DNA of 64,000 nucleotides from an uncultured Flavobacteriales bacterium (GTDB lineage Bacteria > Bacteroidota > Bacteroidia > Flavobacteriales_G > Salibacteraceae). Location: the NCBI GenBank assembly GCA_937121175.1, contig CAKZKD010000028.1, forward strand, positions 220,506-284,505, written 5' to 3'. Under the pieces are notes generated by a model. That model saw only the letters and a list, made by a program, of their open reading frames with translations, searched no databases and was not told the origin of the DNA. The translations under genes and the position numbers were made by a program. Shown piece after piece: positions 11,373 through 64,000 of the stretch (position 1 is the first letter of the stretch; every line of letters starts with the position of its first letter).

Positions 11373-11401
11373 TTGTTAAGTAGTTAATATTTCTATATTT
11401 G
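11373..11401 (+). promoter_or_regulatory. Full Bacteroidota promoter, TTG-N18-TATATTTG
   Basis: TTG at 11373-11375 and TATATTTG at 11394-11401 are separated by 18 bases, matching the Bacteroidota -33/-7 consensus in both halves. The ATG of the first beta-helix cargo gene is 43 bases downstream. This is the best promoter in the window and probably also drives the second cargo gene at 14791. Confidence 0.7.
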
Positions 11402-11444
11402 GTGGTTCATTCGAAACTTGTACACAGTAATTTAAATAGAGAAT

Positions 11445-14762: not shown

Positions 14763-14790
14763 GTCACATAGATAAAAAATACGTAACAAT

Positions 14791-17700: not shown

Positions 17701-18210
17701 GTACTGGGAACCCCTAGTATTCAAATTAGTGATACAACTAATGGTTTATTGTTCAAAGTGGTTTCTAATACTTCTGCTGGCAACAACCACTCATGGGACT
17801 TTGGAGATGGAGATACTTCAGGTTTCCGCTCTCCAAAACACATATATTCAGCTAACGGCACGTATGAAGTAAAATACACTAATAGCAACAAGTGTAAAAC
17901 CGCTGATACAACCTTTGAAGTAACAGTGCTTACATTAGATGTCGAATTGAATTCTAAAGAAGGTAGATTAACTCTATTTCCTAACCCAAACAACGGGTCT
18001 TTTAATCTTGAATTTAATGACATGAACGCGGAAAATGTAACTATTAGTGTTACAGACTTAAACGGTAGAACAGTATTCACAGAGAATATCGGAACAATTT
18101 CTACCAATACTAATCACAACGTGAATATTGAGAATATCGCCTCAGGATACTATAACATTAATATAGATATTGACGGAGCAATTTCTACAGAACGTTTCAT
18201 TGTGAAATAG
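14791..18210 (+). CDS. T9SS-secreted protein with GEVED domain, beta-helix and PKD-like domain
   Basis: This 1,139-residue protein starts with a signal peptide ending near VLAQN. A GEVED-type domain follows (about 30-175), recognisable from MWIDWNQNGTFDAAE and TRLRARTE. An Ig-like segment and then an Asn-rich beta-helix region (about 340-700) come next, with several SDTNLCDG-type modules after them. A PKD-like module contains HSWDFGDGDT, and the type A sorting domain begins LTLFPNPNNG and ends ERFIVK. It lies 28 bases after the other large cargo gene with no promoter box between, so the two are likely co-transcribed. The shared modular order points to a common origin, with the GEVED domain gained or lost in one copy. 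The function is unknown and likely at the surface. Confidence 0.86.
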   Translation: MKKLYTSLAVFTLLLVAGVDVLAQNYCTPRFTRNWTSMSSFQTTGGIQDVNVGSLTRTNGNNGYTDATNLATLIVAPSSTVQFTFTYDWINGSAYDRMWIDWNQNGTFDAAERLITSPRYGRGSRTSTTYSVTMPDASGMVPGSTRLRARTEESTNTNPCYNGSWGGSVVDIEVFVPQNSSTISEVISPGNPVCPGVLFQDLTIKVCNDGIARLDTFQVGGLYRTTDAIGNPIPEITMPNITYVDSLAPGECRDVLVYQHSPGFKTGDTIIIWSSMPNGVVDSVDNRDTIMYIIDPYLATKRFSVGDTTAGANDFSSLNIALNYFDSIGGLCDSLIIELDTSYSGTVDQYAIPNLSGAGSNAPIIIRNKVPETQITLRYDSADVDNNYVMLVGDVSYVFFENINFYTADGFATNHGQNILISDESNNIHFIHCNFENEFFNNTNRNNNSLVRGTDVGSTITFSDCNFTNGSDAIYFQSGSEIMISDAKIIDATLVGIHLNNCTNISVSNSEIKSLTNNSYAFTNINLIGMGMWFVNPRGDFFIDNNLVGASNSQWPRYGVFINNYSKISGVGNIQNNVINIGQPWSSLAIRGLYLNQSSALNIQHNSIAVNGNSNANSSLFISGGSGNKLFNNIFSIEVAGEAMTQSTLGVAQSDYNNYYSFGNDIISIGGTGYANITGFRNASSYGMNSYNLNPFFYDTKRNDLHVCNNLLSRGGTAFSSVSSDIDGDSRDMVTPSIGADEFTPISEVRLVDDYGLCPGDTTRLSAGGGNFGETAIWKSIATGSTIDTNQWIDVTVPGEFAVTFFNTCGVVVDTVEIIAPEAANLPSDTNLCDGAVYSVDASITNGTSYMWSTNDTGNAIVIDKQATYFITTTDVWGCISSDQFDVTYSPAAGIVEVDEEICDRDFIQLNSNVSNTIGATFTWTGYDGSVSETNSVAAFLGSDLPVGGGKVKVLVNHLGCITEDSVQYSVLGTPSIQISDTTNGLLFKVVSNTSAGNNHSWDFGDGDTSGFRSPKHIYSANGTYEVKYTNSNKCKTADTTFEVTVLTLDVELNSKEGRLTLFPNPNNGSFNLEFNDMNAENVTISVTDLNGRTVFTENIGTISTNTNHNVNIENIASGYYNINIDIDGAISTERFIVK

Positions 18211-44778: not shown

Positions 44779-45792
44779 TTACCCTTTTTGAATTCGTTGA
44801 TAATTCTCTAATCCAATAATGACCAGAAGTGACAATACAAAAGTTGCCATAACAGACACCACAACAATTAACCAACGAATTGGGTAAGCCTTCTTTTCTG
44901 AAGCCCATGCTTGGTTTACTGTAAACTTATGCGTTACATTTTGAGAAGCATCTACTTTCAATTCTTCATACTTGGCTCGAAGCAACAGCAAACGCTCCAA
45001 TTCAAATTCACGTTGATCGCTCAATCTTTCTTGGAGCGGGCCATATTTCCCTAAGGTATCCAACTCATCTTTCAACCGTTTTGCAGCACCACTATTTCCC
45101 TGCGCCAAAACCTTGTAATATTCCTGAGAAAGCATTTCGGTTTGTTTTTCCGCATTCGCAATACCTTTTTCACCTAGCATTCTCAAAGTATCATCAGCAG
45201 ATTTCATGCGATTCTCCATTTTTTCATATTCCTTCTCAATTACCTGCAATGCTTGTTTAGCTCTTTGATGAATCATATTATTCTTTGCAGAGTCTAACAA
45301 AGCGGCAATATCATTTGCGATAGCGGCAGCCATATTCTTATCCTTATCCAGCACACGGATTTCAATGGACTGGAACTCAGTTCGTTTGTACGAAACATTA
45401 TCTTCCCAAGTCTCAATCAATTTGGTTTGTGGAAAATCTTCATCAGGCTCTATCTCGTAATGACTCATCAATTGATACTTAGCCACAATCCTATCGCGAA
45501 TCATTTCTGAATTTAAAATCTGAAGCATTTGTTCTGCTTGTTCCTCTTCTCCAAACTGAACAATATCATTCTTGGCTCCTGCATCTTCAGTCATCACGCC
45601 TTTCGAAATTGAACTCGAAAAAGCAGGGAAAAACACATAAGTAGATTCAAATTTTTCTGGAATAATTAATGAAACCCCTGCCGATATTACTGCGGCTAAG
45701 CCACACACAATAATTAATTGCTTTTTCCATTTGAGTAAAAACACTAATAAATTAGTGCTATCAAACTGTTCATTGTGCTGTTCTGTACTCAT
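44779..45792 (-). CDS. Wzz-like polysaccharide chain-length determinant
   Basis: This 337-residue inner-membrane protein has the Wzz layout: a membrane segment near residues 28-50 preceded by LLVFLLKWKKQL, a long periplasmic coiled-coil region, and a final segment (about 307-330) just before the C-terminus. IPEKFESTYVFFPA after the first segment is typical. It lacks a C-terminal tyrosine-kinase domain, so it belongs to the simpler class that sets O-antigen length. It is followed by the WaaL/Wzy-like gene and diverges from a glycosyltransferase gene, supporting a role in surface polysaccharide. Confidence 0.85.
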   Translation of the reverse strand: MSTEQHNEQFDSTNLLVFLLKWKKQLIIVCGLAAVISAGVSLIIPEKFESTYVFFPAFSSSISKGVMTEDAGAKNDIVQFGEEEQAEQMLQILNSEMIRDRIVAKYQLMSHYEIEPDEDFPQTKLIETWEDNVSYKRTEFQSIEIRVLDKDKNMAAAIANDIAALLDSAKNNMIHQRAKQALQVIEKEYEKMENRMKSADDTLRMLGEKGIANAEKQTEMLSQEYYKVLAQGNSGAAKRLKDELDTLGKYGPLQERLSDQREFELERLLLLRAKYEELKVDASQNVTHKFTVNQAWASEKKAYPIRWLIVVVSVMATFVLSLLVIIGLENYQRIQKG

Positions 45793-45814
45793 TTTTCAAT
45801 TTTAAAAAGTCCGT

Positions 45815-45822
45815 CAAAAGTA
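45815..45822 (-). promoter_or_regulatory. -7 promoter box (TACTTTTG) for the wzz-waaL-like pair
   Basis: On the minus strand TACTTTTG matches TAnnTTTG and lies 22 bases before the ATG at 45792, in the 55-base gap shared with the divergent glycosyltransferase gene. No TTG is found at normal spacing. Confidence 0.45.
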
Positions 45823-45847
45823 AGCGAATTCAATTAGTTTAGCCCCT

Positions 45848-46969
45848 GTGAAAATTGCCGTAAACACCCGTCTTTTAATCCAAAATAAATTGGATGGAAT
45901 TGGGTGGTTCACGTACGAAACCTTGAGGCGAATCGTCCACCAACGACCAAATGATGAATTTATTTTCATTTTCGACAAAGATTGGGACAATTCTTTTGTC
46001 TTCGCTGACAATGTAACTCCTGTAAAAATCGGACCACCTAGCAGACACCCCTTTTTATGGTATTTGTGGTTCGAACATTCTATTCCTACTATTTTAAAGA
46101 AATACAAACCATATGTTTTTCTTTCTCCAGATGGCTATCTTTCTCTGAATACTTCTGTGCCTAGTATACCCGTAATTCACGATTTAAATTTTGAGCACTA
46201 CCCCAAAGATTTGCCTTTTTGGTATCGAAATTATTACCAACATTATTTTCCCAAATACGCCCAGAAAGCGGAACGAATTGCCACGGTAAGTGAATTCTCT
46301 AAACAAGACATAGTTTCTCGTTACGGAATTTCGGAAGAAAAAATCGATGTGGTTTATAATGGATTTTCAGAAGCATTCCATCCTTTGAAAGAACATGAAA
46401 TTACTGAAAGTCATAAACAGTTTGCAAATGGCAAACCCTACTTTGTTTTTGTAGGCACTTTACACCCACGAAAAAACATTGCTCGTTTGTTGGCGGCGTT
46501 CGAAGATTTTAAAAACTCCGGCAGTTATCGTCAGCAATTGGTAATCATTGGACGTAGAAAATGGTGGACATCAGAAATGGAAAACACTTTCCAAAGCATG
46601 AAATTTAAAAATGAAGTAATTTTTCACGAAGGTGTTTCACAATCAGATATCGCTAAAGCCATCGGCGGAGCAGATGCACTGCTCTATCCCTCCACATTCG
46701 AAGGTTTCGGAATACCTATTCTAGAGGGCATGAAGTCGGGCGTTCCTGTCATCACAAGCAACGTAAGCTCCATGCCCGAGATTGCCGCAGGCTCTGCATT
46801 AATGTGTAATCCGTTTGAAGTAAAATCCATTGCCGAGCAACTTAAAAAACTGCAACACGAGCCGAATCTTAGAGAATCTTTAATCGAAAAAGGAAGAACG
46901 AGGGCTCATGATTTTTCTTGGAAAAAAACTGCTGAGTTACTTTGGAAAAGTGTCGAGAAGACGGCATAA
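45848..46969 (+). CDS. GT4-family glycosyltransferase
   Basis: This 373-residue protein has the two-domain GT-B fold. The C-terminal half contains FVGTLHPRKNIARLLAAFEDF and the sugar-nucleotide motif YPSTFEGFGIPILEGMKSGVPV, with the paired Glu residues of retaining GT4 enzymes. It transfers a sugar to a lipid- or polysaccharide-linked acceptor at the inner membrane; donor and acceptor are unknown. The start is GTG 45848 (MKIAVNTRLL), divergent from the Wzz-like gene, so it probably belongs to the same O-polysaccharide pathway. The giant cargo gene begins 88 bases downstream. Confidence 0.9.
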   Translation: MKIAVNTRLLIQNKLDGIGWFTYETLRRIVHQRPNDEFIFIFDKDWDNSFVFADNVTPVKIGPPSRHPFLWYLWFEHSIPTILKKYKPYVFLSPDGYLSLNTSVPSIPVIHDLNFEHYPKDLPFWYRNYYQHYFPKYAQKAERIATVSEFSKQDIVSRYGISEEKIDVVYNGFSEAFHPLKEHEITESHKQFANGKPYFVFVGTLHPRKNIARLLAAFEDFKNSGSYRQQLVIIGRRKWWTSEMENTFQSMKFKNEVIFHEGVSQSDIAKAIGGADALLYPSTFEGFGIPILEGMKSGVPVITSNVSSMPEIAAGSALMCNPFEVKSIAEQLKKLQHEPNLRESLIEKGRTRAHDFSWKKTAELLWKSVEKTA

Positions 46970-47057
46970 ATCTTCATTTATCGAATTTTTCTGTCTTAAG
47001 GCCGACTCATTATTGGTTAGGGTAACCGTAGGTATTGAATAGGCGTACATTCGCGGC

Positions 47058-50000
47058 ATGATGATAAATTCGATAAGAGTATGTGCGGTACTCCCATTCC
47101 TTCTATTACATATCCAACTATTTTCTCAAGTTTTACATGAAGCTGCAACTTGCCCTACTGGAATGGTTCCAGGTCAAGTGGTTTGGAGCGATCCCGCTGG
47201 CGCCAATGAATTTGATTGGACAAATCGTGCAACAACATTTACAGCAAACAACGTAAGCGGAACTCAAGTAGATGTAACTTATACTTGGACAGGACAAACT
47301 GGGACATTCGTAGATTTTTCTGGTATTCTTTCCCCGGACGTAAAAACTACCTTAACTGCAGGCGAAGAAGCTGTAACATTCGTTACAAGTGGATTTACAA
47401 CTGGCATGACACTTACTATGTCACTTTCACCGCCTATTCCTGGTTATTTGGGTTATGAAATTTACCACATGAACGATGATGGAAATGCTGGCGATCAATA
47501 CACCATTTCTGCAACCACAACATCTGGAAATACTATTTACCCAACTTTTACTGCCAATGGAACTCCTTCTTGGACAACAACGGCGACACCCGGAAATGTA
47601 GATGGTACAGGTTCAAGTACCGATGGACAAAACGACCAAGTAGGTGTTAACTTTAATTCTGACGAATTTATTAGTAGTGTTACTATGGAATGGGAAGATT
47701 GTTCTACTTGTAACCAAAATGAATTACATGGTGCAGCATTCGGAGCGTTCTCTTTCTGCATTGATGATTGGGATAAAGATGGGATTCATAACAAATCTGA
47801 TATTGATGATGACAACGATGGAATTTTAGATTCAGACGAACAATGCGCAAATAGTAATGCGGGCGGTACTTTAGATTGGGACTCTGAAAATTGGGTGAGC
47901 GGCTCAAATTCTGGTTCATTTACAGTTGCTGGGGTGACCGTGTCCGCTAACTTTTCTTCTACAGGAAATGCTTTAACTTCTATTGACGACCAAACTAATT
48001 TTACCGGTGGTTTAAACCCTGTTCAAAGAGCATTAAGGTACAGAGTTAATCAACCTTCCAGAGATGACATTGTAACCAGTTCTTGGGATTTTTCTGATGC
48101 AGTAGATGGTCTCTCTTTTTCCATTTTTGATGTCGATGCTAACGGCACCAATAACATTGATGATATTAGAATTGTTGGCTATGCTTTTGGAGCAATTGTA
48201 CTTCCGACTCTGACTCAGGGAGCATCAAATAATGTTACTGAAAATAGAGTTACCGGAACTGCAGGGTCAGGAAATACTTCTGCTAATGGCAATGTTTCTG
48301 TACTGTTCCCAGAGATGATTGACAGTATGGTTATTTACCATACAAATGCCCCTCCGGCAAACTCCAACCCAACAACTAATGCTGTTGCCATACACGATTT
48401 AACTTGGACGCGCAGCTGTCCTTCTTATGATTTAGATGGGGATGGCGTTGGAAATAGTTTTGACGCGGATTCAGATAACGATGGTGTTTTTGACTTTTAT
48501 GAATCTGGTGTTTCTGCTGCTCAAATTGCAGTATTGGATGCAAACAATGATGGCATCATTGACGTTTCGGTTGCTGAAGGTACTAACGGACTAGCTGATG
48601 CCCTAGAAACTGTTGCAGACAATGGAGTCACAAACTTTATTCCTGTTGATACAGATAACGACGGTGCGCTTGACCGCTACGATTTAGATAGTGACAACGA
48701 TGGAATCTATGATGTTGTCGAAAATGGAAATGGAACAGACGCGAATAATGATGGTATTGTTGACGGAACTGCTGATGACGACGAAGACGGTATTCTTAAC
48801 TCAGCCGATAGCGACGTTGCCAACCTTGGTTCACCTTCAACACCTATGGCAAATGCAGATGGAGATGCTTTTCCAAATTACATTGACATTGATAGCGACA
48901 ATGATGGTATTCTTGATAACGTTGAAGCCCAAGCTACAACGAATTCCCCAAGAAGACCTTCTGGAACTGATACTGATGGCGATGGATTAGATAATAATTT
49001 CGAAGGTGGAAATCACTTAACTCCGGTTGACACTGAAAACGATGGAACTCCTGATTACTTGGATTCCGATTCAGACAATGATGGAGAATCTGATTTCCTA
49101 GAGGCTTATGATACTGATAACAACGGCGTTACAAACACAACGCTTTCAGGTTCTGACGGAGATGGAGACGGGTTTGACAATACCTTGGATATTGTTAATG
49201 GATGGAATAATACTACCAACATATACAATTCTAATCAAGACGCCGAGGACTTCCCTAACTTTGACAACTCAGCAACTAATGAAAGAGATTGGAGAGAATT
49301 TAGTGACTTTGACGGTGACGGAATAGGAGACGGAAACGACCTTGATTCGGATAACGACGGAATATTAAACACTGACGAGGGTACTGAAGATACTGACGGT
49401 GACGGCTTGCCTAATTACCGAGATTTAGATAGCGATGGCGACGGTATTCCCGACTTAGTAGAAGCTGGTGGAACTGATGCAAATGGAGATGGGATAATTG
49501 ATGGATTTACCGATGTTGCTGTAGCTGAGGGTTACAGCGATAATACAGGATGTAGCACTACTCCATTAACCATAAGTTCTCCCACAAGTCCGGCCCTTAC
49601 AGACGATGGTTACGTTACCGTTCCAAAACCTTTTAGTTTCGATTTTTTCGGTAACTCCTTCGCGGGTTCGCTGAGACTGAACATGAATGGCTGGGTGAGC
49701 TTTGACAACATTTCACCAGGGTCAAATTTCACAGCTGTCTCATTTCCGAATGCAAATTATACAAACACTATTGCCTTTAATCATACTGACATATCTCCGA
49801 ACAATGGTGGTACAGTTCGGTACGGAACAAACGGTGCAACCCCAAATAGAATTACAATAATTGAATTTAACGCAACCCCATTTTTTAGTGGGTCAGGTTC
49901 AGCTACAATGCAATTACAGTTGTACGAAACAACTAATGAGGTTAGAATTGTAACCACAAATTATGCGACAAGTGGAAATAACAGTACAATGGGATTAAAC

Positions 50001-53000
50001 CAAAATGGCACAACTTCCTATAACGTAACTGGCAGAAATAACGCCTCCTATACAATAAACTCAGCAGAATGTCGGTCATTTACCTATGCGGCTGGACAAG
50101 TTCAAGACGGATATCATGACCCATTTCAAACCACTCCACTTGCTGTTCCAAATAAGGACGGTGATGCCGTTGCAGATTACCTAGATACTGATTCAGATAA
50201 CGACGGTATTACTGACGTGGTTGAAGCTGGCGGAACAGACTCAAATGGCGATGGAATAATAGACAACAACAACTCTGATACCGATGAAGATGGTTTGCCA
50301 AATTCTGTTGACCCAAACAACGGAGGCTCTGCATTGGCAAATGCCGATACTGATGGCGATGGTTTCAGAGATGCTCTAGATGTTGATTCTGACAACGATG
50401 GAATTACCGACCTAATAGAAGCCGGAGGAATTGATTCCAATAGTGATGGAATCGTTGACAACTTAACCGATTCAGATGGCGATGGAATGGCCAATTTGCA
50501 CGACTCCAACAATGGAGGAACTGCTATTGGAACTCGAGATTCTGACGGAGATAACGTAACCGACGACAAAGATAACGACTCAGACAACGATGGTATCTTA
50601 GACATCATTGAAGCGGGCGGAGTTGACGCCAACCGAGATGGGCGAGTTGATGTGACCACAGATACAGACCAAGATGGACTGGCAAATATTTTTGACGGTA
50701 CAAATGGAGGTGTCCCCCTAACGGTTCCAAACACAGATGGAGACAACAACGCTAACTATCGCGATGCAGATTCTGATAATGACGGTATCGCGGATGTTAT
50801 TGAAGCACAATTGAGTAGCGGTTATTCAGCCCCTTCAAATTCAGATGCTGATAACGATGGTATTGTAAACAACTACGACGGTGGAAACGGTTTAGTTCCG
50901 GTAGACACAGACTCTGATGGCACTCCCGATTATTTAGATTCTGACTCTGATAATGACGGATACTACGATTATAATGAAGCCTACGACACAGATGGAGACC
51001 GCATCCCAAATACGCTCATATCTAGTACAGCTGATGCAGACGGTGATGGAGTTTACAACGTTTTTGATTCGGATGGGGCTAGCGCAACCAATAACGGCGG
51101 TTCCGATAATAATAACCAGACCCCTACTTCTTTTCCTGATGATGATGATGCAGGTAACGACCGAGATTGGAGAGACGACCATGATGCAGATGGCGATGGT
51201 GATTCCGATTTAAACGATTTGGATAGTGATGGTGATGGAATTCCAAATACAGCAGAATCACCAAATGGAGCTAATCCACTTTTAGATTCAGATGATGATG
51301 GTTTCCCAGATTACTTAGATGTTAACAACGGTTCTTGTGGTGGTTTAAATTCAGAAGGTGTCTGTAATAACTACGATGCCGACGGTGATGGCGTTCCAGA
51401 TTTTCTCGATTTAGATTCTGATAACGATGGCGTTGCAGATGTTGTTGAGGCTGGTGGAACAGATTCGAACGGGGACGGTATCATTGACAACAACAACACC
51501 GACACAGATGGTGATGGACTACCAAATTCAGTGGACCCTAACAACGGCGGTTCAGCTTTGGCCAATGCAGATACTGATGGTGATGGAACAAATGATGTTT
51601 ATGACGTAGATTCTGATAATGACGGTATTACCGATTTAATTGAAGCGGGTGGTACAGACAGCAATAACGATGGCCGAGTAGATGCTTTTGCTGATACTGA
51701 TGGAGACGGTTTCTCTAATCTATTTGATACCGATAATGGTGGAACAGCAATTACTAATACAGATACAGATGGTGATAACGTACCCGACAGCAAAGATTCT
51801 GATTCAGACAACGATGGAATAATGGATATTATTGAAGCTGGTGGTGTTGACGCAAATGGGGATGGACGAGTCGATTCCAACACCGATACCGATGGTGATG
51901 GTCTAGCAAACACATTTGATGCTAATAACGGGGGAACAGCCTTGACAAGACCTGACACAGATTCTGATGGTATTGAAAACTACAAAGATGCAGATTCTGA
52001 CAATGACGGAATTGCTGATGTAATTGAAGCGCAATTGACAAGTGGATATACAGCTCCAAGTGGTTCTGACGCGGACAACGATGGTATCGACAATAGTTTT
52101 GATGGTGGAAACGGATTAGCTCCGATTGATACTGACTCTGATGGCACGCCCGATTATTTAGATTCCGATTCTGATAATGACGGCAAGAGCGATTACAACG
52201 AAGCCTATGACACTGATGGAGATGGTGTTCCAAATACTCTAATTTCTAGTACAGCAGATGCAGACGGTGATGGCATTTACAACGTTTTTGATTCTGATGG
52301 AGGCAGTGCTACTAACAATGGTGGTGCAGACAATAACAATCAAACCCCTTCTTCTTTCCCAGATGATGATATAGTTGGTGGCGATAGAGATTGGAGAGAT
52401 GGTTTGGATTCTGACAATGACGGAGACCCCGATGGAGTTGATGCAGATAGCGACGGAGACGGAATACCAAATATAGCAGAAACACCAAATGGAGGAAATC
52501 CTTATGCAGATGGAGACAATGATGGAACACCAGATTACTTAGATGTAAACAACGGTGCTTGTGGAGGAATTAATGCAAACGGAATTTGTATTAATTACGA
52601 TGCTGATGGTGACGGAATTCCAAATTTCTTAGACCTAGACTCTGATAACGACGGCACTGCAGATGTAATAGAGGCTGGCGGAGCAGATTCTAATGGTGAT
52701 GGAATAATTGACAACAACAATTCTGATACAGACGGAGATGGACTCCCTAATTCTGTTGACCCCAACAATGGTGGTGCGGCATTAACAAATGCAGATACCG
52801 ATGGTGATGGTACCAACGATATTTACGATGTAGATTCTGATAATGATGGTATTACTGACTTAGTTGAAGCAGGAGGCACCGATACTGATAATGACGGAAG
52901 AGTGGACAGTTTTGTAGATGGTGACGAAGATGGTTTCTCTAACTTACACGATACTGATAATGGAGGAACTGCAACTTCTAACAGAGATTCCGATGGAGAT

Positions 53001-55562
53001 AATGTACCCGACAGTAAAGACAATGATTCCGATAATGATGGAATTATGGACATTATTGAAGCGGGTGGCGTTGATGCAAATGGTGACGGACGGGTTGACT
53101 CCAATACCGATACCGATGGTGACGGTTTAGCCAATACATTTGATGATGACAACGGTGGGTCAGATTTACCAAGACCAGATACAGACAGCGATGGTATCGC
53201 AAACTACAGAGACGCTGATTCTGACAATGACGGTGTTGCAGATGTCATTGAGGCTCAATTAACAAGTGGCTATTCTGCTCCTTCAAATTCCGATGGCGAT
53301 AACGATGGTATCGTAAACAATTTTGATGGTGGTAATGGGCTAGTACCTATTGACACAGATTCAGATGGAACTCCGGATTACCTAGATTCAGATTCGGACA
53401 ACGATGGTTTTAGTGATTACAACGAGGCTTACGATACAGATGGTGACCGAGTTCCAAATACACTAATATCAAGCACAGCAGATGCTGATGGTGATGGCAT
53501 TTATAACGTATTCGATTCCGATGGAGCCAGTGCTACCAACAATGGTGGCTCCGATAACAACAACCAAACGCCTGCTTCTTTCCCTGATGATGACAATACT
53601 GGCGGAGACAGAGATTGGAGAGAAGGCGCTGATTCAGATGGTGATGGTGACCTTGATGGCAATGATGGCGATAGTGATGGCGATGGCATTCCCAATACGG
53701 CCGAATCTCCAAATGGAGCTAACCCAATGCTAGATGGCGACAATGACGGTATCCCAGATTATGCAGACACCGACAATGGTTCTTGTGGCGGACTAAATGC
53801 TAATGGAATTTGCAATAATTATGACGCTGACGGAGATGGAATTCCTGATTTCTTAGACCTTGATTCAGACAACGATGGAACCTCTGATGTTGTAGAAGCT
53901 GGTGGAACTGACTCCAATGGTGACGGTATTATCGATAATAATAACTCTGATTCCGATAATGATGGAATTCCTAATTCCGTTGACCCTAATAATGGTGGAA
54001 GCGCACTTGCAAATCCTGATTCTGATGGTGATGGTGTACGTGATGCCTATGATGTTGATTCCGACAATGATGGAATCACTGATTTAGTTGAATCTGGAGG
54101 AACTGACAATAATAACGATGGCCGCATTGATGCTTTTGTAGATACAGACGGTGATGGGCTTTCTGACACATTTGATACTGATAACGGAGGAACCGCTATT
54201 GAAAATAGAGATTCGGACAATGACAATATTCCTGACAGTAAAGACCGAGATTCTGATAACGATGGAATCGCTGATATAATAGAAGCAGGTGGAGTTGACT
54301 CAAACGGTGATGGAATGGTCGATTCTAATACCGATACTGATGGAGATGGGCTTGCGAATACTTTTGATGATGACAATGGCGGTTCTGACTTATCAAGACC
54401 AGATACTGATGGAGATGGTGTTCCAAATTACAGAGACCAAGATTCAGACAACGATGGAATTATAGACCTAGTAGAAGGGCAAACTACCGCTGGATTTAAC
54501 AATCCGACAGGAATTGATACCGACGGTGATGGTATTGATAATCGATTTGACCCAGACTGTTCGCCATGCGCCGGAGTAAATGGCGAAGCTGTAGTACCCA
54601 CAAATACAGATAATGCTGGTGCGCCTGATTATCTTTCGCAAGATACAGATGGCGATGGTGCCCCTGACTACACAGAAGGATTTGATACTAATGGTGATGA
54701 AGATGCATTAGGCGAACTAATTGCTCGAGCTGCTGCTTATGAAACGGCAAATGGAAATCCAGGACACTATCCAACAACAGACTCAGATGCAGATGGAATT
54801 CCAAATTGGGCTGAAGACGCAGATAATGACGAAATCAGAAATTATTTAGACCCTAATAGTACCTTCTTTAGGGATGATGATGGAGATGGGCTCATCAATT
54901 TATTTGATACTGACGAAAGTGGTGTAGCAAGTGACTTACCTGATTCAGATTCAAATGGTATCGACGATTTTAGAGATATGTCTCACAATGCGTGGGCTCT
55001 TCCTATTGAATTAATCAGCTTCAATGCTAAAATTGAAGGCGATAATGTTCGATTAGATTGGGAAGTGGCAACAGAGATTAACTCAAGCCACTACGTTATT
55101 GAGCGTAAACATCAATCCGAATCTGAATTCTATTCAATACTTGAGGTTCAAAGTTCTGGCAATTCCAATAGCTTGTTAAGTTATTCTGATTACGACCTAA
55201 ATCCGTTTATTGGAATTTCTTACTACAGGTTGATTCATTTTGATATCGATGGTTCTACAACTTATTCAGATGTTAAATCTGTTCATTTCAATTCTAATAG
55301 TCAGGCATTACAACCCGAGTTATATCCTAACCCGGCAAACGATAAAGTCTATATTTCGATAAATGAAGAAACCATTTTTGCAGAACTATCATTGACTATA
55401 CTTGATGCAAATGGTCGAATTGTACTTTCCACTACTTCAACTTCAAACTCGTTGAAAGAAAACGGCATCAATACCATGGAGTTCCCTAACGGTTCATATA
55501 CCGCCATTGTAGAAAATGCTTCTGGAAATCCTGTAAGATTCCAAATCGTAGTAAATCACTAA
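47058..55562 (+). CDS. Giant thrombospondin-type-3-repeat, T9SS-secreted surface protein
   Basis: This 2,834-residue protein has a signal peptide (about 1-24), a beta-rich N-terminal region, and from about residue 236 onward dozens of acidic calcium-binding motifs of the thrombospondin type 3 form DxDxDG. Two non-repeat insertions interrupt them (about 265-465 and 835-1015); the second reads like a beta-sandwich (LNMNGWVSFDNISPG). Residues about 1045-2450 are a super-repeat of 408 residues. Each unit carries a conserved cysteine pair (CGGLN...VC). After about 2645 a domain beginning LPIELISFNAK precedes the type A sorting domain starting LYPNPANDK. The ATG at 47058 is followed directly by another at 47061. 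A calcium-stiffened adhesin or stalk is likely. Confidence 0.9.
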   Translation: MMINSIRVCAVLPFLLLHIQLFSQVLHEAATCPTGMVPGQVVWSDPAGANEFDWTNRATTFTANNVSGTQVDVTYTWTGQTGTFVDFSGILSPDVKTTLTAGEEAVTFVTSGFTTGMTLTMSLSPPIPGYLGYEIYHMNDDGNAGDQYTISATTTSGNTIYPTFTANGTPSWTTTATPGNVDGTGSSTDGQNDQVGVNFNSDEFISSVTMEWEDCSTCNQNELHGAAFGAFSFCIDDWDKDGIHNKSDIDDDNDGILDSDEQCANSNAGGTLDWDSENWVSGSNSGSFTVAGVTVSANFSSTGNALTSIDDQTNFTGGLNPVQRALRYRVNQPSRDDIVTSSWDFSDAVDGLSFSIFDVDANGTNNIDDIRIVGYAFGAIVLPTLTQGASNNVTENRVTGTAGSGNTSANGNVSVLFPEMIDSMVIYHTNAPPANSNPTTNAVAIHDLTWTRSCPSYDLDGDGVGNSFDADSDNDGVFDFYESGVSAAQIAVLDANNDGIIDVSVAEGTNGLADALETVADNGVTNFIPVDTDNDGALDRYDLDSDNDGIYDVVENGNGTDANNDGIVDGTADDDEDGILNSADSDVANLGSPSTPMANADGDAFPNYIDIDSDNDGILDNVEAQATTNSPRRPSGTDTDGDGLDNNFEGGNHLTPVDTENDGTPDYLDSDSDNDGESDFLEAYDTDNNGVTNTTLSGSDGDGDGFDNTLDIVNGWNNTTNIYNSNQDAEDFPNFDNSATNERDWREFSDFDGDGIGDGNDLDSDNDGILNTDEGTEDTDGDGLPNYRDLDSDGDGIPDLVEAGGTDANGDGIIDGFTDVAVAEGYSDNTGCSTTPLTISSPTSPALTDDGYVTVPKPFSFDFFGNSFAGSLRLNMNGWVSFDNISPGSNFTAVSFPNANYTNTIAFNHTDISPNNGGTVRYGTNGATPNRITIIEFNATPFFSGSGSATMQLQLYETTNEVRIVTTNYATSGNNSTMGLNQNGTTSYNVTGRNNASYTINSAECRSFTYAAGQVQDGYHDPFQTTPLAVPNKDGDAVADYLDTDSDNDGITDVVEAGGTDSNGDGIIDNNNSDTDEDGLPNSVDPNNGGSALANADTDGDGFRDALDVDSDNDGITDLIEAGGIDSNSDGIVDNLTDSDGDGMANLHDSNNGGTAIGTRDSDGDNVTDDKDNDSDNDGILDIIEAGGVDANRDGRVDVTTDTDQDGLANIFDGTNGGVPLTVPNTDGDNNANYRDADSDNDGIADVIEAQLSSGYSAPSNSDADNDGIVNNYDGGNGLVPVDTDSDGTPDYLDSDSDNDGYYDYNEAYDTDGDRIPNTLISSTADADGDGVYNVFDSDGASATNNGGSDNNNQTPTSFPDDDDAGNDRDWRDDHDADGDGDSDLNDLDSDGDGIPNTAESPNGANPLLDSDDDGFPDYLDVNNGSCGGLNSEGVCNNYDADGDGVPDFLDLDSDNDGVADVVEAGGTDSNGDGIIDNNNTDTDGDGLPNSVDPNNGGSALANADTDGDGTNDVYDVDSDNDGITDLIEAGGTDSNNDGRVDAFADTDGDGFSNLFDTDNGGTAITNTDTDGDNVPDSKDSDSDNDGIMDIIEAGGVDANGDGRVDSNTDTDGDGLANTFDANNGGTALTRPDTDSDGIENYKDADSDNDGIADVIEAQLTSGYTAPSGSDADNDGIDNSFDGGNGLAPIDTDSDGTPDYLDSDSDNDGKSDYNEAYDTDGDGVPNTLISSTADADGDGIYNVFDSDGGSATNNGGADNNNQTPSSFPDDDIVGGDRDWRDGLDSDNDGDPDGVDADSDGDGIPNIAETPNGGNPYADGDNDGTPDYLDVNNGACGGINANGICINYDADGDGIPNFLDLDSDNDGTADVIEAGGADSNGDGIIDNNNSDTDGDGLPNSVDPNNGGAALTNADTDGDGTNDIYDVDSDNDGITDLVEAGGTDTDNDGRVDSFVDGDEDGFSNLHDTDNGGTATSNRDSDGDNVPDSKDNDSDNDGIMDIIEAGGVDANGDGRVDSNTDTDGDGLANTFDDDNGGSDLPRPDTDSDGIANYRDADSDNDGVADVIEAQLTSGYSAPSNSDGDNDGIVNNFDGGNGLVPIDTDSDGTPDYLDSDSDNDGFSDYNEAYDTDGDRVPNTLISSTADADGDGIYNVFDSDGASATNNGGSDNNNQTPASFPDDDNTGGDRDWREGADSDGDGDLDGNDGDSDGDGIPNTAESPNGANPMLDGDNDGIPDYADTDNGSCGGLNANGICNNYDADGDGIPDFLDLDSDNDGTSDVVEAGGTDSNGDGIIDNNNSDSDNDGIPNSVDPNNGGSALANPDSDGDGVRDAYDVDSDNDGITDLVESGGTDNNNDGRIDAFVDTDGDGLSDTFDTDNGGTAIENRDSDNDNIPDSKDRDSDNDGIADIIEAGGVDSNGDGMVDSNTDTDGDGLANTFDDDNGGSDLSRPDTDGDGVPNYRDQDSDNDGIIDLVEGQTTAGFNNPTGIDTDGDGIDNRFDPDCSPCAGVNGEAVVPTNTDNAGAPDYLSQDTDGDGAPDYTEGFDTNGDEDALGELIARAAAYETANGNPGHYPTTDSDADGIPNWAEDADNDEIRNYLDPNSTFFRDDDGDGLINLFDTDESGVASDLPDSDSNGIDDFRDMSHNAWALPIELISFNAKIEGDNVRLDWEVATEINSSHYVIERKHQSESEFYSILEVQSSGNSNSLLSYSDYDLNPFIGISYYRLIHFDIDGSTTYSDVKSVHFNSNSQALQPELYPNPANDKVYISINEETIFAELSLTILDANGRIVLSTTSTSNSLKENGINTMEFPNGSYTAIVENASGNPVRFQIVVNH
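50190..54480 (+). repeat. Tandem super-repeat, unit exactly 1,224 bp (3.5 copies)
   Basis: The same block starts at 50190, 51414, 52638 and 53862, with spacing of exactly 1,224 bases (408 codons) each time. The first three copies are complete; the fourth stops matching at about 54480. Protein sequence and length are kept closely, while codons differ. In a 21-codon comparison beginning near 51599 and near 52823, 12 codons differ and 10 of those are silent. Confidence 0.9.
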
Positions 55563-55563
55563 C

Positions 55564-55617
55564 AAATTAGCTCTTTGCGAATATATTTTGCGAAGAGCTA
55601 ATTTTGATTTTTTTGAT
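55564..55617 (+). terminator. Rho-independent terminator after the giant cargo gene
   Basis: A 15-base-pair stem (55564-55578 with 55590-55604, one G-T pair) closes an 11-base loop and is followed by a T-rich tail to about 55617. It begins two bases after the stop codon. Confidence 0.8.
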
Positions 55618-55752
55618 TCCTAGTTTAATCATTCCTCTTATTTACTTCGTTCTGTCGAATTGATTATTGTTCTCATAATTCCTATTCACAATAGGAACTA
55701 AAATCATACTTAATTGTACTACCCTAGAAGAAAGCAATCGCTCATTTTGGGC

Positions 55753-55760
55753 TATTTTTG
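55753..55760 (+). promoter_or_regulatory. -7 promoter box (TATTTTTG) for korA-korB
   Basis: TATTTTTG matches TAnnTTTG and lies 16 bases before the korA ATG at 55777. No TTG is seen at the -33 spacing. Confidence 0.45.
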
Positions 55761-55776
55761 CAGCTACTCTACACGC

Positions 55777-57615
55777 ATGAACGAAACTCAACAAGAACTT
55801 AAAGAAATTACCATTTTATTCGCTGGAGATTCAGGAGATGGAATGCAATTAACGGGTAATGAATTTGCCAATACCAATGCATTGTTTGGTAATGATTTGG
55901 CTACTTTCCCAAACTTCCCAGCTGAAATTCGAGCACCGCTCGGTACAGTTGCAGGTGTATCTGGTTTTCAAATGAAATTTGGAAGCACGGAAATATTCAC
56001 TCCAGGAGACCAAGCCGATGTAATGGTGGCTATGAACTCAGCAGGTCTAAAGTCAAGCTTGCATAATTTAAGGCGTGACGGATTAGTAATTATCAACTCC
56101 TCTGGTTTTGATAAAAAGAACCTAAAACTAGCCAAATACGAGACGAGTCCACTAGAAGATGATACGCTTAAATATTATCGAGTGTACCAAATGGACATCA
56201 CCAAATTGACCCAAGAAACGCTCAAAGATTCTGGTCTTGGACGAAAAGATGTTGAGCGCTCCAAAAACATGTTTGTGCTGGGTTACCTGTACTGGATGTT
56301 CAATCGAAAAATGGACGGTACCGAATCTTTCTTAAAAAGAAAATTCGCTTCAAAACCTGAAATTTTAAATGCTAACCTTGCTGTTTTAAAAGCTGGTTAC
56401 CACTATGGAGATACTACTGAAACCTTCACTTCAAGATACGATGTAAAAAAAGCAGATTTACCAAAAGGAAAGTACCGTTCAATCATGGGAAATCAGGCGA
56501 CAGCGATGGGATTGATTGCCGCTGCACAGAAATCGGGTTTACAATTATTTTATGGTTCCTACCCTATTACACCTGCTTCGGATATTTTACATGAATTGGC
56601 CAAACACAAAAATTTTGGCGTAAAAACTTTTCAAGCGGAAGACGAAATTGCAGCAGTTACCGCATGCATTGGAGCTTCTTTTGGAGGGGCTTTAGCAACA
56701 ACAGGTTCATCTGGACCTGGCATCGCCCTGAAAGGTGAAGCGCTCGGATTGGCCGTGATGTTAGAAATTCCTTTGGTGGTGGTCAACGTTCAACGTGGTG
56801 GCCCTTCAACTGGTTTACCCACCAAAACAGAACAATCGGATTTAATGCAAGCACTTTACGGAAGGAATGGAGAAGCGCAAACTATGGTTATTGCTCCTTC
56901 AACGCCAAAAGACGCATTTGAAACAGCATTTGAAGCCTGCCGATTAGCAGTGGAACACATGATGCCTGTAATGATGTTGAGTGACGGATATATTGCCAAT
57001 GGTTCTGAGCCTTGGGCGTTTCCAAAAGCAGCAGATTTACCAGAAATAACTCCAAAATTTGCCAACCCAAAAGCGTACGAAGACAAGGAATATTTGCCTT
57101 ATAAACGTGACGAAAATTTGGTTAGAGAATGGGCTATTCCGGGAATGCCGGGATTGGAGCACCGAGTTGGTGGTTTGGAAAAAGAGGAGTTAACGGGTAA
57201 TGTTTCGTACGACCCAGACAATCACGAGCACATGGTAAAAACACGTGCGGCTAAAATCCAGAAAATTGAAGACGATATTCCACTTCAAACGATTGACCAA
57301 GGTGCCGAAAAAGGCAAATTGTTAATCTTGGCTTGGGGTTCTCCTCATGGGGCAATTAAAACAGCGGTTCGTCAATTACTAGAAGATGGTTACGACGTGA
57401 GTCACGCGCACATTAAATACCTCAACCCATTCCCAAAAAACTTGGGAGATATTCTAAAGAACTTCGATAAAGTATTGATTCCAGAAATCAACGACGGGCA
57501 ATTGGATATTCTGATTCGAAATAAATTTTTGGTGCCTTCTGAGCGATTGTGTAAGATTAAAGGCTTGCCGTTTACGGCAAAAGAAATTATCGAAAAAGTA
57601 AAAGCGATTTACTAA
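55777..57615 (+). CDS. korA: 2-oxoacid (2-oxoglutarate):ferredoxin oxidoreductase, fused gamma-alpha subunit
   Basis: This 612-residue protein has the N-terminal gamma-type domain (FAGDSGDGMQLTG, residues about 10-190) fused to the alpha-type pyrimidine-binding domain (from about 225, MGNQATAMGLIAAAQKSGL, then YPITPASDILHEL). The alpha part keeps FQAEDEIAAV and TTGSSGPG. With KorB it oxidises 2-oxoglutarate to succinyl-CoA with ferredoxin, a variant TCA step. The 2-oxoglutarate choice is by family resemblance and is likely but not proved. The start ATG 55777 is preferred to an upstream TTG (55714), which lies before the promoter-like box. Confidence 0.92.
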   Translation: MNETQQELKEITILFAGDSGDGMQLTGNEFANTNALFGNDLATFPNFPAEIRAPLGTVAGVSGFQMKFGSTEIFTPGDQADVMVAMNSAGLKSSLHNLRRDGLVIINSSGFDKKNLKLAKYETSPLEDDTLKYYRVYQMDITKLTQETLKDSGLGRKDVERSKNMFVLGYLYWMFNRKMDGTESFLKRKFASKPEILNANLAVLKAGYHYGDTTETFTSRYDVKKADLPKGKYRSIMGNQATAMGLIAAAQKSGLQLFYGSYPITPASDILHELAKHKNFGVKTFQAEDEIAAVTACIGASFGGALATTGSSGPGIALKGEALGLAVMLEIPLVVVNVQRGGPSTGLPTKTEQSDLMQALYGRNGEAQTMVIAPSTPKDAFETAFEACRLAVEHMMPVMMLSDGYIANGSEPWAFPKAADLPEITPKFANPKAYEDKEYLPYKRDENLVREWAIPGMPGLEHRVGGLEKEELTGNVSYDPDNHEHMVKTRAAKIQKIEDDIPLQTIDQGAEKGKLLILAWGSPHGAIKTAVRQLLEDGYDVSHAHIKYLNPFPKNLGDILKNFDKVLIPEINDGQLDILIRNKFLVPSERLCKIKGLPFTAKEIIEKVKAIY

Positions 57616-57637
57616 CCTCAGCCAAAAACAAAAGATT

Positions 57638-58651
57638 ATGTCAGATACACTTACAGCTAAAGATTTTGCGACAGATCAAGACGTCAGATGGTGTCCGGGT
57701 TGTGGTGACTACTCCATATTAAAACAGGCGCAAAGCGTTGTAGCTGAATTGGGCCGAAAACGCGAAGAAATCGTTTTCATTTCTGGAATTGGTTGTTCTA
57801 GTCGTTTCCCTTATTACATGGAAACCTACGGTATGCACTCCATTCACGGAAGAGCAACTTCTATTGCTAGCGGACTTAAAGCTACTCGCCCAGAATTGGA
57901 TGTTTGGATTATTACTGGTGATGGCGATTCACTTTCGATTGGTGGCAATCATTTGATTCACCTTCTGCGAAGAAATTTTGACGTGAATATTCTATTATTC
58001 AACAATGAAATTTACGGCCTTACCAAAGGACAATATTCACCCACCTCACCAGAGGGAAAAGTAACGAAGAGTACTCCTTTTGGAGCGCTAGACCATGCGT
58101 TTAATCCTTCGGCAGTTGCCCTTGGTGCAGATTGCAGCTTTTTTGCCCGCACCATGGACCGCGACCCAAAACATTTAAAAGAAATTTTGAAACGAGGAAA
58201 TGCACATGCTGGTGCTTCTCTAATTGAGATTTACCAAAACTGTAACGTATTTAACGACGGTGCTTTTTTCACTTTCACTGATAAAGCCACAAAAGGCGGT
58301 TCTACCCTATTCTTAGAGCAAGGTCAACCTTTGGTTTTTGGAGCAGAAAAAGAATTTGGCGTCAAGTTAGACGGCTTCAAACCCCAAGTGGTAAACCTAA
58401 ACGAAGGTCATTCTTTAGACGATTTATGGGTGCACGACGAACACGATTACATGAAAGCTACCTTGCTTTCCAGAATGTTTGATGTACCAAGCGAAGGGAG
58501 TTTACCTCGTCCGTTTGGAGTTTTCTATTCCGCAGAGAGAGGTACTTATGAAGTTGCACTTGATGCTCAAATTGCAGAAGCTACTGAAGCACTTGGAAAA
58601 GGTGATTTGGATGCTTTATTGGCTGGTAATAGTACTTGGGAGATTAAGTAA
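57638..58651 (+). CDS. korB: 2-oxoacid (2-oxoglutarate):ferredoxin oxidoreductase, beta subunit
   Basis: This 337-residue subunit binds thiamine diphosphate (GDGDSLSIGGNHLIHLLRRN) and has the WCPGCGDYSIL cysteines that help ligate the iron-sulphur cluster, together with FISGIGCSSRFPYY. It completes the enzyme with korA, 22 bases upstream in the same operon. The separate ferredoxin-like delta subunit found in some organisms is not present here, as expected for two-subunit enzymes. Confidence 0.94.
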   Translation: MSDTLTAKDFATDQDVRWCPGCGDYSILKQAQSVVAELGRKREEIVFISGIGCSSRFPYYMETYGMHSIHGRATSIASGLKATRPELDVWIITGDGDSLSIGGNHLIHLLRRNFDVNILLFNNEIYGLTKGQYSPTSPEGKVTKSTPFGALDHAFNPSAVALGADCSFFARTMDRDPKHLKEILKRGNAHAGASLIEIYQNCNVFNDGAFFTFTDKATKGGSTLFLEQGQPLVFGAEKEFGVKLDGFKPQVVNLNEGHSLDDLWVHDEHDYMKATLLSRMFDVPSEGSLPRPFGVFYSAERGTYEVALDAQIAEATEALGKGDLDALLAGNSTWEIK

Positions 58652-58686
58652 TCGATTGTAAAACAAACGATTCTCTCCTTCCAATA

Positions 58687-58855
58687 CGTCATTCCGTAAG
58701 TGTAATTAAACCCAACTTTCTTTTTCGAAAGTTGGTGTGAAATAGCTGTACGGAATCTTTTCTCTATTGGAATACACGCATTTAAAAATAGATTCTGTAT
58801 AGAAGTTTCTCTAAATTCCTTCGTCATTAAGTTCAACTAATCTTACGGAATGACG
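58687..58855. repeat. 169-bp MITE-like element with 14-bp terminal inverted repeats
   Basis: CGTCATTCCGTAAG at 58687-58700 is exactly repeated in reverse complement at 58842-58855. Inside are a perfect hairpin (58712-58720 with 58727-58735, six-base loop) and a weaker pair (GTACGGAATCT near 58748 with AGATTCTGTAT near 58790). No open reading frame or clear target duplication is present. It fills most of the gap between korB and the DUF4143 gene. Confidence 0.6.
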
Positions 58856-58878
58856 GTGAAATTTTTAAGTAATGCAGA

Positions 58879-60003
58879 TTATTCTGTAATAAAGTCCATG
58901 TAATTCTCATTCGTAATGAGTTGTGTAATCGCATTGGGGTATGCGTTGGTAAACGCCTTGGTAATTTTTCCTTTTGAGAGCGGATTCCATTTAAACTCGT
59001 AACCGTACAAATTTCCTTCGCGCTCTTCTAAGTAATCAACTTCTTGCTGCGCCTTGGTTCTCCAAAAAAAACGATTAGCCCTTATTTTGTTGTAGTTCAA
59101 GTACTTCATACGTTCCGAAATCATAAAATTCTCCCACAAAGCACCAACGTCTTGTCGTAAGTCAATTTGATTGTAATTGGCAATGAGTGCATTGCGAACA
59201 CCGTTGTCGTAGAAGTATACTTTTCGTGTTTTAGTCAACTCGTTTCTTGGGTTTCGGCTGTAGGTGGGTAACCGGAAAACAATAAAACTTTGTTCCAATA
59301 AAAGAATGTAATTCTCCACCGTTTCGCTACTAAGCCCTACAATTTTACCCAACTCATGATACGATACTTGATTGCCCAATTGAAACGCCAATGCCTGAAG
59401 TAATTTGACCAGCTTATCGCTTTTCATAAGATTGCCAAGCATCAAAATGTCTTTGAATAAATAACTATCAACCAATTGAGAAAGCAACTCGACCTCATCG
59501 CCTTCGGCCGTAATTATTTCTGGATAAAAACCGTAAATGAGGCGGTGTTTTAGTAACCTGTGTTCGGTAATGGCTCCGTGGTGGTTTATCATTTCTTCTA
59601 CCGAAACAGGAAACATGATGTATTCAAACTTTCGACCAGTGAGTGGTTCGTTGAGTTTATTAGAAATTTCAAAAGCCGAAGAGCCGGTTGCAATAAGCTG
59701 CACACCTTGTAATTCGTCGGTTATCAATTTTAGTTTTCGGCCAATATCAGGAATTTGTTGGGCTTCGTCAATTATCAGCAATTTAACACCAGCCAAATCT
59801 TTCTTAAGCCATGAAGTATTCGGGTTTTCAAAAAAAACACGAGTATCTTGGTTGTCAGCGTTTAGTCTTAAAACGCCTTCTGTCGATTTTGCAATTTGGT
59901 TAATTAACGTGGTTTTACCAACCTGCCTAGCTCCTATAATTATAAGTGCCTTTCCTTTAAAAAGTCGATTTTCTACATTTTTTACTAACTGCCTGTAAAT
60001 CAT
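58879..60003 (-). CDS. AAA ATPase with DUF4143 domain
   Basis: This 374-residue protein has an N-terminal AAA_14-type P-loop domain (Walker A GARQVGKTTL at about residues 24-33, Walker B KLLIIDEAQQIPD) and a C-terminal DUF4143 domain that contains EVDYLEEREGNLYGYEFKW, reminiscent of the ExK-like core of PD-(D/E)XK nucleases. Such proteins are patchily distributed and often duplicated in bacteria; their role is unsettled. It stands alone. The region upstream holds unusual palindromic repeats and a promoter-like box almost touching the start, and downstream lies the MITE-like element. These surroundings suggest a mobile or recently acquired gene, but that is inference. Confidence 0.85.
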   Translation of the reverse strand: MIYRQLVKNVENRLFKGKALIIIGARQVGKTTLINQIAKSTEGVLRLNADNQDTRVFFENPNTSWLKKDLAGVKLLIIDEAQQIPDIGRKLKLITDELQGVQLIATGSSAFEISNKLNEPLTGRKFEYIMFPVSVEEMINHHGAITEHRLLKHRLIYGFYPEIITAEGDEVELLSQLVDSYLFKDILMLGNLMKSDKLVKLLQALAFQLGNQVSYHELGKIVGLSSETVENYILLLEQSFIVFRLPTYSRNPRNELTKTRKVYFYDNGVRNALIANYNQIDLRQDVGALWENFMISERMKYLNYNKIRANRFFWRTKAQQEVDYLEEREGNLYGYEFKWNPLSKGKITKAFTNAYPNAITQLITNENYMDFITE

Positions 60004-62966: not shown

Positions 62967-64000
62967 ATGAAAAGAATTCTTTCCCTTGTAGTTTTACTCT
63001 CAAGTTTGAGTGTATTGGCTCAATCTCCACAAAAATTTAACTACCAAGCAGTTGTTCGAAATGCGGACGGCACTTTGATTACCAATCAATCCGTGAATTT
63101 TAGAATGTCTATTTACATAGGTTCTTCTGCAGGAACGATTAAATATCAAGAGACACAAGTTGCTACAACCAACAAATATGGATTAGTGGCACTTTCGATT
63201 GGTTCTGGAATCATAGTTTCGGGAAGCATGAGTTCAATAAACTGGGGAAATGATGCCCATGTTCTTCGAGTTGAAATTGACCCAACTGGTGGAAATAGTT
63301 TCAATATTCTAAGCACATCAGAATTAAACTCAGTTCCTTATGCGCTATATGCATTAAGCTCCGGAAATGGTTCTGGAGGGGGAAGCGACAATGATGCAGA
63401 CAGTACCAATGAAATTCAAACCATTTCAGTTTCCAACGATACCGTGTTTTTAAGTAAAGGAGGATTTGCGGTTATTCCCCCTTCAAGTGCTGTTACCAAC
63501 GACAATGATTCTACCAACGAGCTACAGACGATTACAATATCTACTGACACGCTATTTTTAAGTGATGGTGGCTTTGCCGTACTTCCTTCTGTTGGGGGAA
63601 CCAACAACGACAATGATTCTACTAATGAATTAAACACTGCGGTTGCTTTAGTTGGAACGGATTTAAACGTAACTGATGCAGATGGAACTTTAACTGCTGA
63701 TTTAAGTAGCCTCGAAGAATCGCAAGCAATTATTGATACGGCGGCAGCTATTCGAGCTGACTTTCCGGCTGGATTGATTAACAACGACAATGATTCTACT
63801 AATGAACTAAACACTGCAGTTGCTTTAGTCGGAACGGATTTAAATGTAACTGATGCAGATGGAACTTTAACTGCGAACTTAAGCAGCCTCGAAGAATCGC
63901 AAGCTATTATTGATTCGGCCGCGGCTATTCGAGCTGACTTTCCGGCTGGATTGATTAACAACGACAATGATTCTACTAATGAACTAAACACTGCAGTTGC
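62967..64000 (+). CDS. Secreted 59-residue-repeat protein, partial at window edge
   Basis: An open frame runs from ATG 62967 to the window end (344 codons seen). It has a signal peptide (about 1-19, ending VLAQS), then an N-terminal domain starting PQKFNYQAVVRNADG. In Bacteroidota this domain heads long secreted proteins with collagen-like, tail-fibre-like or other repeats. From about residue 150 come Asp/Asn-rich units (NDNDSTNELQTI), and from 63603 a 59-residue tandem repeat continues past the edge. The rest of the gene, including any sorting domain, is missing. The role is probably a surface fibre or adhesin. Confidence 0.82.
   Translation, partial: MKRILSLVVLLSSLSVLAQSPQKFNYQAVVRNADGTLITNQSVNFRMSIYIGSSAGTIKYQETQVATTNKYGLVALSIGSGIIVSGSMSSINWGNDAHVLRVEIDPTGGNSFNILSTSELNSVPYALYALSSGNGSGGGSDNDADSTNEIQTISVSNDTVFLSKGGFAVIPPSSAVTNDNDSTNELQTITISTDTLFLSDGGFAVLPSVGGTNNDNDSTNELNTAVALVGTDLNVTDADGTLTADLSSLEESQAIIDTAAAIRADFPAGLINNDNDSTNELNTAVALVGTDLNVTDADGTLTANLSSLEESQAIIDSAAAIRADFPAGLINNDNDSTNELNTAV
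63603..64000 (+). repeat. 177-bp (59-codon) tandem repeat, at least 2.2 copies
   Basis: Units start at 63603, 63780 and 63957, each 177 bases apart. The first two differ at 12 of 177 positions by my count (about 93% identity), with only two amino-acid replacements. The array continues beyond the window. Confidence 0.9.

Follow-up and report, generated by a model that had tools for sequence, protein, structure and literature searches.

A putative calcium-dependent stalk protein whose 408-residue repeats have kept their protein sequence while their silent sites decayed

Repeat-rich surface proteins of bacteria are often discussed as length-variable (PMC8201768, PMC9704523). For the Periscope Proteins, the parts of these two papers considered here describe tandem protein repeats of high similarity, with the proposed role of carrying an N-terminal domain out from the surface, and genes whose highly similar DNA repeats permit recombination and length change (PMC8201768, PMC9704523). 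A second class for comparison consists of large proteins from Bacteroidota and other bacteria (P0001, P0019, P0034, P0055) that resemble thrombospondin type 3 (TSP3) proteins; some sources name them "large repetitive" or "gliding motility-associated," and they carry the same DSDNDG-type repeats as the protein analysed here. TSP3 repeats themselves are disulphide-linked. Motifs, module spacings, and indels were surveyed in 133 proteins, comprising P0001 to P0132 and the protein encoded in our window, with the glycosyltransferases from P0133 on left out. The EAQ, E-YDT, and RDWR modules occur in this order in 81 of the 133, and long-period super-repeats are present in 88. The periods of these other large proteins differ from the one described below (266, 312, 433, 440, 500, 542, 695, and more residues), and many of their arrays, unlike the present one, retain silent similarity between copies. 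A literature search recognized no paper as describing this array.

The array lies in the window, the whole 64,000-nucleotide stretch of DNA that was analysed, within a single large gene whose parts and neighbours are as follows.

45848..46969, + strand: left neighbour, a glycosyltransferase gene
47058..55562, + strand: the whole gene, encoding 2,834 aa, Asp-rich (18.9% D) and TSP3-like, with a type IX secretion system (T9SS) type A tail
47058..47126, + strand: likely signal peptide upstream of 47127 (about aa 1-23; a hydrophobic N-terminus, judged by eye)
47127..48437, + strand: N-terminal region, without a Pfam match; candidate binding end
48414..49502, + strand: diverged upstream TSP3-like segment with one cassette-like module (m1, at aa 620)
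49536..50072, + strand: interposed non-repeat domain (aa ~827-1005), without a Pfam match and present in other proteins too
50166..51389, + strand: super-repeat copy 1, 408 aa
51390..52613, + strand: super-repeat copy 2, 408 aa
52614..53837, + strand: super-repeat copy 3, 408 aa
53838..54551, + strand: super-repeat copy 4, partial, ~240 aa (~0.6 unit), diverging after that
55320..55532, + strand: type IX secretion C-terminal sorting domain (PF18962, aa 2755-2825)
55564..55604, + strand: intrinsic-terminator-like hairpin directly 3' of the stop codon, 18 pairs
55714..57615, + strand: right neighbour, 2-oxoacid:ferredoxin oxidoreductase alpha-like, which we take from its sequence to be KorA

The protein runs from a hydrophobic N-terminus through the N-terminal region, the TSP3-like repeats, the interposed domain, and the array to the type IX tail, and it is very acidic, with 620 D+E residues vs 74 K+R. 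Relatives of the neighbouring glycosyltransferase at 64-68% identity carry names that tentatively place the organism in Flavobacteriales, close to Crocinitomicaceae or Salibacteraceae. Five hairpin sites like the one behind the stop codon were found in the region, where 5.6 were expected by chance. Stretches related to the interposed domain are also present in a protein of the same genome (C28:137886-138359) and in proteins of genomes G006 and G016.

Among self-offsets from 30 to 6,000 tested over positions 45,000-60,000, 1,224 was the strongest. The first three copies align without a gap over 408 aa, and the period is exactly 1,224 bp with zero indels, as a first-pass annotation of this DNA had reported. 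That annotation placed four copies at 50190, 51414, 52638, and 53862. These positions do share one frame of the open reading frame (ORF) 47058-55562 and are spaced as claimed, but the register is arbitrary, as homology starts slightly upstream of 50190, at about 50,160-50,166. The repeats themselves are present, but as three full copies and a partial fourth, which stays in register until about 54,550. In-register protein identity is 78-85% among the full copies and 67-77% against the fourth; consequently, the similarity between copies is not chance. DNA identity among the full copies is 72-77%. Aspartate is nearly invariant: of the columns in each case, 95 of 100 Asp, 50 of 63 Gly, 18 of 34 Ser, 14 of 25 Thr, and 10 of 18 Ile are unchanged across the three full copies. 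Each full unit contains 100-102 Asp and a pair of Cys at unit positions 391 and 400, and it can be divided into six sub-blocks of 65, 64, 64, 58, 93, and 64 residues, as counted by hand between successive DSDNDG/DSDGDG starts in the unit alignment.

At silent sites, by comparison, the copies resemble each other little more than random codon choice would predict. Where two copies encode the same residue, they use the same codon in 45-51% of cases vs 44-45% expected if codons were drawn at random according to the usage of this gene; the excess over random has a z of 0.1 to 2.3 by permutation in the six pairs, and a second estimate places it between -0.002 and 0.118. The proportion of silent differences, pS, is 0.75-0.87, and the Jukes-Cantor dS is infinite in five of the six pairs and 3.9 in the remaining one, with dN of 0.09-0.27. 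Thus, dN/dS is far below 1, rather than near 1, but has no reliable value because the silent sites are saturated. Over the full compared length (408 codons, or 240 in pairs with copy 4), 150-260 codons differ, 89-181 of them silently. The earlier count of 12 differences in 21 codons, 10 of them silent, is exact for copies 2 and 4; across all six pairs, the first 21 codons hold 11-15 differences, of which 8-12 are silent. The longest in-register exact run between two copies is 11-19 bp, depending on the pair, and the longest exact repeat anywhere in the array is 24 bp. No conversion tracts between copies are visible, given that in-register exact runs do not exceed 19 bp. These results bear out three proposals of the first-pass annotation: that the duplication is old (saturated silent sites in copies whose proteins are 78-85% identical), that the protein is under strong purifying selection (the Asp columns and dN/dS), and that gene conversion, of which no recent instance can be seen, is not homogenising the DNA. 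The saturated copies most likely reflect an ancient duplication after which only the protein sequence has been held.

How old the duplication may be was gauged against four neighbouring genes: a presumed Wzc-like gene with no Pfam match, the glycosyltransferase, and the KorA-like and KorB-like genes. The pooled same-codon excess over random is 0.060 (0.019-0.101) for unit pairs, and for the neighbouring genes it is 0.136 (0.091-0.176), 0.166 (0.123-0.204), and 0.157 (0.109-0.199) against the same-genus genomes G001, G002, and G003, respectively; this is a rough comparison, in which the values of individual genes within the genus span 0.043-0.254, the silent rate may not be the same in every gene, the G001 interval overlaps that of the units, and the unit pairs are not independent. 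Against other genera, the excess is 0.080 for G005 and 0.098 for G008, the latter from three genes. At silent sites the copies thus differ roughly as much as orthologues do between these species or genera. The array is therefore likely to have about the age of the genus or a greater one, and its copies seem to have parted either before the species of the genus did or at about that time.

At the site of the gene in G001, G002, and G003, all of the same genus, about 100 bp separate the aligned ends of the glycosyltransferase and the KorA-like gene, and the intervening gene is absent; the corresponding gap is about 120 bp in G008, which belongs to another genus, about 1.0 kb in G005, and about 2.6 kb in G014. 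Thus, none of the three same-genus genomes (one, G001, listed as 83% complete and another, G002, as 7% contaminated) has the array gene at this site, and neither has G008; the site is read through in all three same-genus genomes. Alignment of the joined flanks defined no insertion point. Searches of these three genomes with the 408-residue unit and with the first 1,036 residues of the protein gave no match, while the unit has some match in 23 of 60 genomes, the own genome included; among the 59 other genomes searched, no close relative and no second strain carrying the gene was found. What is new beside the first-pass annotation is this combination: three same-genus genomes lack the gene at the site, and its copies are nonetheless about as diverged as orthologues. 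KorA identity is 93.3% between the own genome (G000) and G002 and 91.9% between G001 and G002, with corresponding glycosyltransferase identities of 76.4% and 79.0%. G001 and G003 are near sisters, and by these genes the branching of G000 and G002 can be drawn either way; consequently, one gain here and an older gain followed by one or two losses both fit. The content of the interval 46970-55713 also differs more widely (loci L169-L174), being about 0.1 kb in four genomes, about 1 kb or 2.6 kb in others, and an 8.5-kb gene here, and the interval between these two genes may therefore be an insertion-prone spot.

Relatives of the protein are found elsewhere. A search with its N-terminal region, in which the 7,989 candidates with the most words in common were scored, gave 14 proteins, and in P0039, P0121, and P0122 the identity is 57-60% over 95-98% of the region. 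These three share with the window protein the N-terminal region, an upstream cassette at aa 618-635, and a T9SS type A tail, and P0039 and P0121 also have the interposed domain. However, they differ in copy number and in module spacing, which is 626/408/408 here and 434/587/500/500, 434/430, and 420/509 in the three, respectively; P0122 has other domains between its cassettes, and a period of 408 is absent from all three. More distant homologues, P0125 and P0126 (N-terminal region 36% identical), show partial periods of 410 and 411, so the window protein is not alone in having a unit length close to 408. In module trees built from EAQ/E-YDT/RDWR, the upstream module m1 of the window protein groups with modules of the N-terminal homologues, whereas the three array modules form their own clade (100/100) on a long branch, apart from the homologues' backbone modules. 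In P0039, an array of 500-residue units groups with the first module of that same protein; amplification of cassettes thus seems to have happened independently in different proteins.

One explanation for an old array at a site that is empty in its relatives is that its copies had already diverged when a transfer, whether of the entire gene or of the cassette array, brought it into the lineage ready-made. The three empty same-genus sites, together with G008, a unit divergence about equal to that between these species or genera, and the separate clade of array modules all point in this direction. However, the separate origin of array and backbone suggested by the trees was not significant, the AU test not rejecting a single clade of array and backbone modules (p 0.118). 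One or two losses would explain the empty sites equally well, and the data also fit a gain shortly after the split with later duplication. A search for foreign base composition likewise gave nothing, as GC3 (0.285) and GC4 (0.229) fall inside the span of values for the 14 ORFs measured in the window. We regard a ready-made arrival as a tentative alternative and, on balance, a somewhat unlikely one.

The protein is predicted to be a type IX export substrate. The sorting tail scores above the curated cut-offs of both PF18962 (40.5 bits; cut-off 27) and TIGR04183 (28.2; cut-off 23), and the own genome encodes type IX components, with matches to GldM of 299.7 bits (cut-off 180) and SprA of 2341.8 bits (cut-off 200). 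With 150 of 213 candidates scored, this genome gave at least 150 matches to the type A sorting tail, one of which lies in a frame open for 11,098 aa, and it appears to be a heavy user of type IX secretion. Elsewhere in the window, at 7948-18210, three consecutive ORFs of 1,105-1,139 aa encode one protein with FG-GAP and ASPIC/UnbV domains and two that combine PKD domains with a type IX tail.

The evidence on calcium motifs is more mixed. A profile of 53 cassette-like segments, three of its 53 rows being window copies, matches solved structures of COMP (E 1.6e-18), thrombospondin-2 (2.4e-11), and a bacterial OmpA (4.7e-07). It also matches calmodulin (E from 9e-5), more weakly than COMP and the thrombospondins, so composition contributes to these matches. 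By profile match, then, the array shares Asp-rich calcium-loop motifs with the TSP3 repeats of COMP, thrombospondin-1 and -2, and bacterial OmpA (5wtl). It is unlike them in that no Pfam TSP3 family matches the window protein (only Por_Secre_tail and a sub-threshold DUF3244 were found), in having two Cys per 408 residues rather than the disulphide-linked pattern, and in that a profile built only from the four window copies has no match among solved structures at E 0.01. The NCBIfam matches to MtsC, BamM, and CglD are all under cut-off; the TSP3-type cohesion protein MtsC (NF047638) was considered as an identity and set aside, its 82 bits being far below the equivalog cut-off of 350. Taken with the sorting tail and with the matches to GldM and SprA in the genome, the Asp-rich repeats of TSP3-like type suggest a secreted stalk that depends on calcium.

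Alternatively, the protein might serve as a calcium store or as a matrix cross-linker of a neighbouring exopolysaccharide rather than as an adhesin stalk. Its strong acidity is compatible with such a role, as are an O-antigen-ligase-like gene (PF04932) and a glycosyltransferase gene close upstream. However, same-genus genomes have these neighbours without the array gene, and the neighbourhood therefore says little about function. A store or cross-linker is considered unlikely.

The first-pass annotation further proposed that the exact length of 408 residues is selected and that the unit is a structural module, such as a stalk segment of fixed geometry. With zero indels in three full copies at 78-85% identity, the array does stand somewhat apart: of the 88 long-period arrays, 32 (the window array counted) are free of indels in the pair examined, and at 70-90% identity this holds for 24 of 71 (again counting the window array), indels in this set averaging 0.39 per 100 aa. 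(A variant count, with 7 of 43 pairs indel-free, was blurred by array edges, and the 88-array version is used instead.) Given that average, the gap-free 408-aa set is somewhat unusual, and some constraint on length may exist. In addition, a period of 266 residues recurs in 13 of the 88 arrays. However, the modules of the N-terminal homologues are 420-587 residues apart, and those of another protein from the same family of organisms are 429 and 455 apart. Many in-frame indels in the unit among homologues of close relatives were what the annotation had said would argue against a selected length, and this was borne out in part: spacings vary, but in homologues that are not close relatives. Furthermore, an AlphaFold2 model of one unit from the 53-row alignment has no compact fold (pLDDT 63, pTM 0.29), a result that might be expected for a chain ordered by calcium and is not proof of absence; of the six Foldseek matches to this model, to thrombospondins, COMP, an OmpA, and a BAM complex, none reaches E 0.001. 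The near-constant piece across proteins is instead a smaller step within the unit, of about 61 residues: E-YDT and RDWR are 59-62 residues apart in 183 of 213 motif triplets, from 81 of the 133 proteins, and in 171 of the 186 triplets from the 54 proteins with two or more. Neither the selected length nor the 408-residue module is supported by these data, and fixed geometry of the whole unit is decidedly unlikely.

The 266-residue super-repeat is a contrasting case of a recurrent unit length. It is found in many TSP3-like proteins (L018, L034, L055; P0058, P0061, P0068, P0069, and others), some of whose carriers are named Zobellia, Maribacter, or Cellulophaga, and its arrays retain a silent similarity of 0.41-0.53. 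Across surveyed arrays generally, silent similarity spans about 0 to 0.7 with locus L068 set aside; of the 44 rows of that survey, six are the present array and three are frames of one stretch at L068.

Finally, it had been suggested that silent divergence is itself favoured, since identical DNA copies would recombine and alter the length of the stalk. For arrays of at least 75% protein identity among the fetched loci, the present one does have the lowest silent similarity (0.07-0.12 vs 0.21-0.72 in 12 other rows), although the loci compared differ in codon bias and the best gap-free offset was chosen for each. Moreover, this genome can harbour homogeneous repeats, since a different gene of the window carries a near-identical one of 177 bp. 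Selection for silent scrambling is nonetheless very improbable, because codons agree about as often as random or slightly more, which gives no sign that silent identity is avoided, because exact 12- to 24-mers are not depleted relative to 400 synonymous shuffles (29 exact 18-mers observed vs 18.2, sd 9.4), and because plain saturation accounts for everything seen. The 177-bp repeat itself lies at 63603-64000, in an ORF from 62967 that runs off the contig end; its copies have 93% DNA identity, with 57 of 59 residues the same and 48 of those 57 encoded by identical codons, and the array is probably longer, since the contig stops at the repeat.

Taken together, these results make it quite probable that the locus holds an old array of Asp-rich calcium-motif cassettes in a predicted type IX surface stalk, whose protein sequence has been held while its silent sites decayed. 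In such a stalk, motifs of the DxDxDG type would bind calcium and stiffen the chain, and the N-terminal region would be carried outward as the binding end. Indels may have been purged for breaking calcium ligation within sub-blocks, and not because a length of 408 matters. Copies that lack a long identical run would now rarely undergo unequal recombination, and copy number would in effect be locked, as a consequence of the age of the array and not as its cause.

A bolder reading combines several of these points: the copies split before the species of the genus did, arrived ready-made at one intergenic site, and form a stalk whose length recombination can no longer alter. It is doubtful as a whole. 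If it were true, silent decay would be a general switch from variable-length to fixed-length bacterial stalks. The same-codon excess over random is a simple measure that needs one genome for each array, and it could sort young, recombining arrays from old, locked ones.

Set beside the Periscope Proteins, as described in the parts of the two papers drawn on above, the window array is alike in its tandem, similar protein repeats and in an N-terminal domain that they may project. It is unlike them in its DNA, with 72-77% identity between full copies and no exact repeat above 24 bp, and a length-locked stalk would be the opposite of a Periscope Protein. On the best reading, the window protein belongs to the large TSP3-like class of type IX stalks and is unusually old among them.
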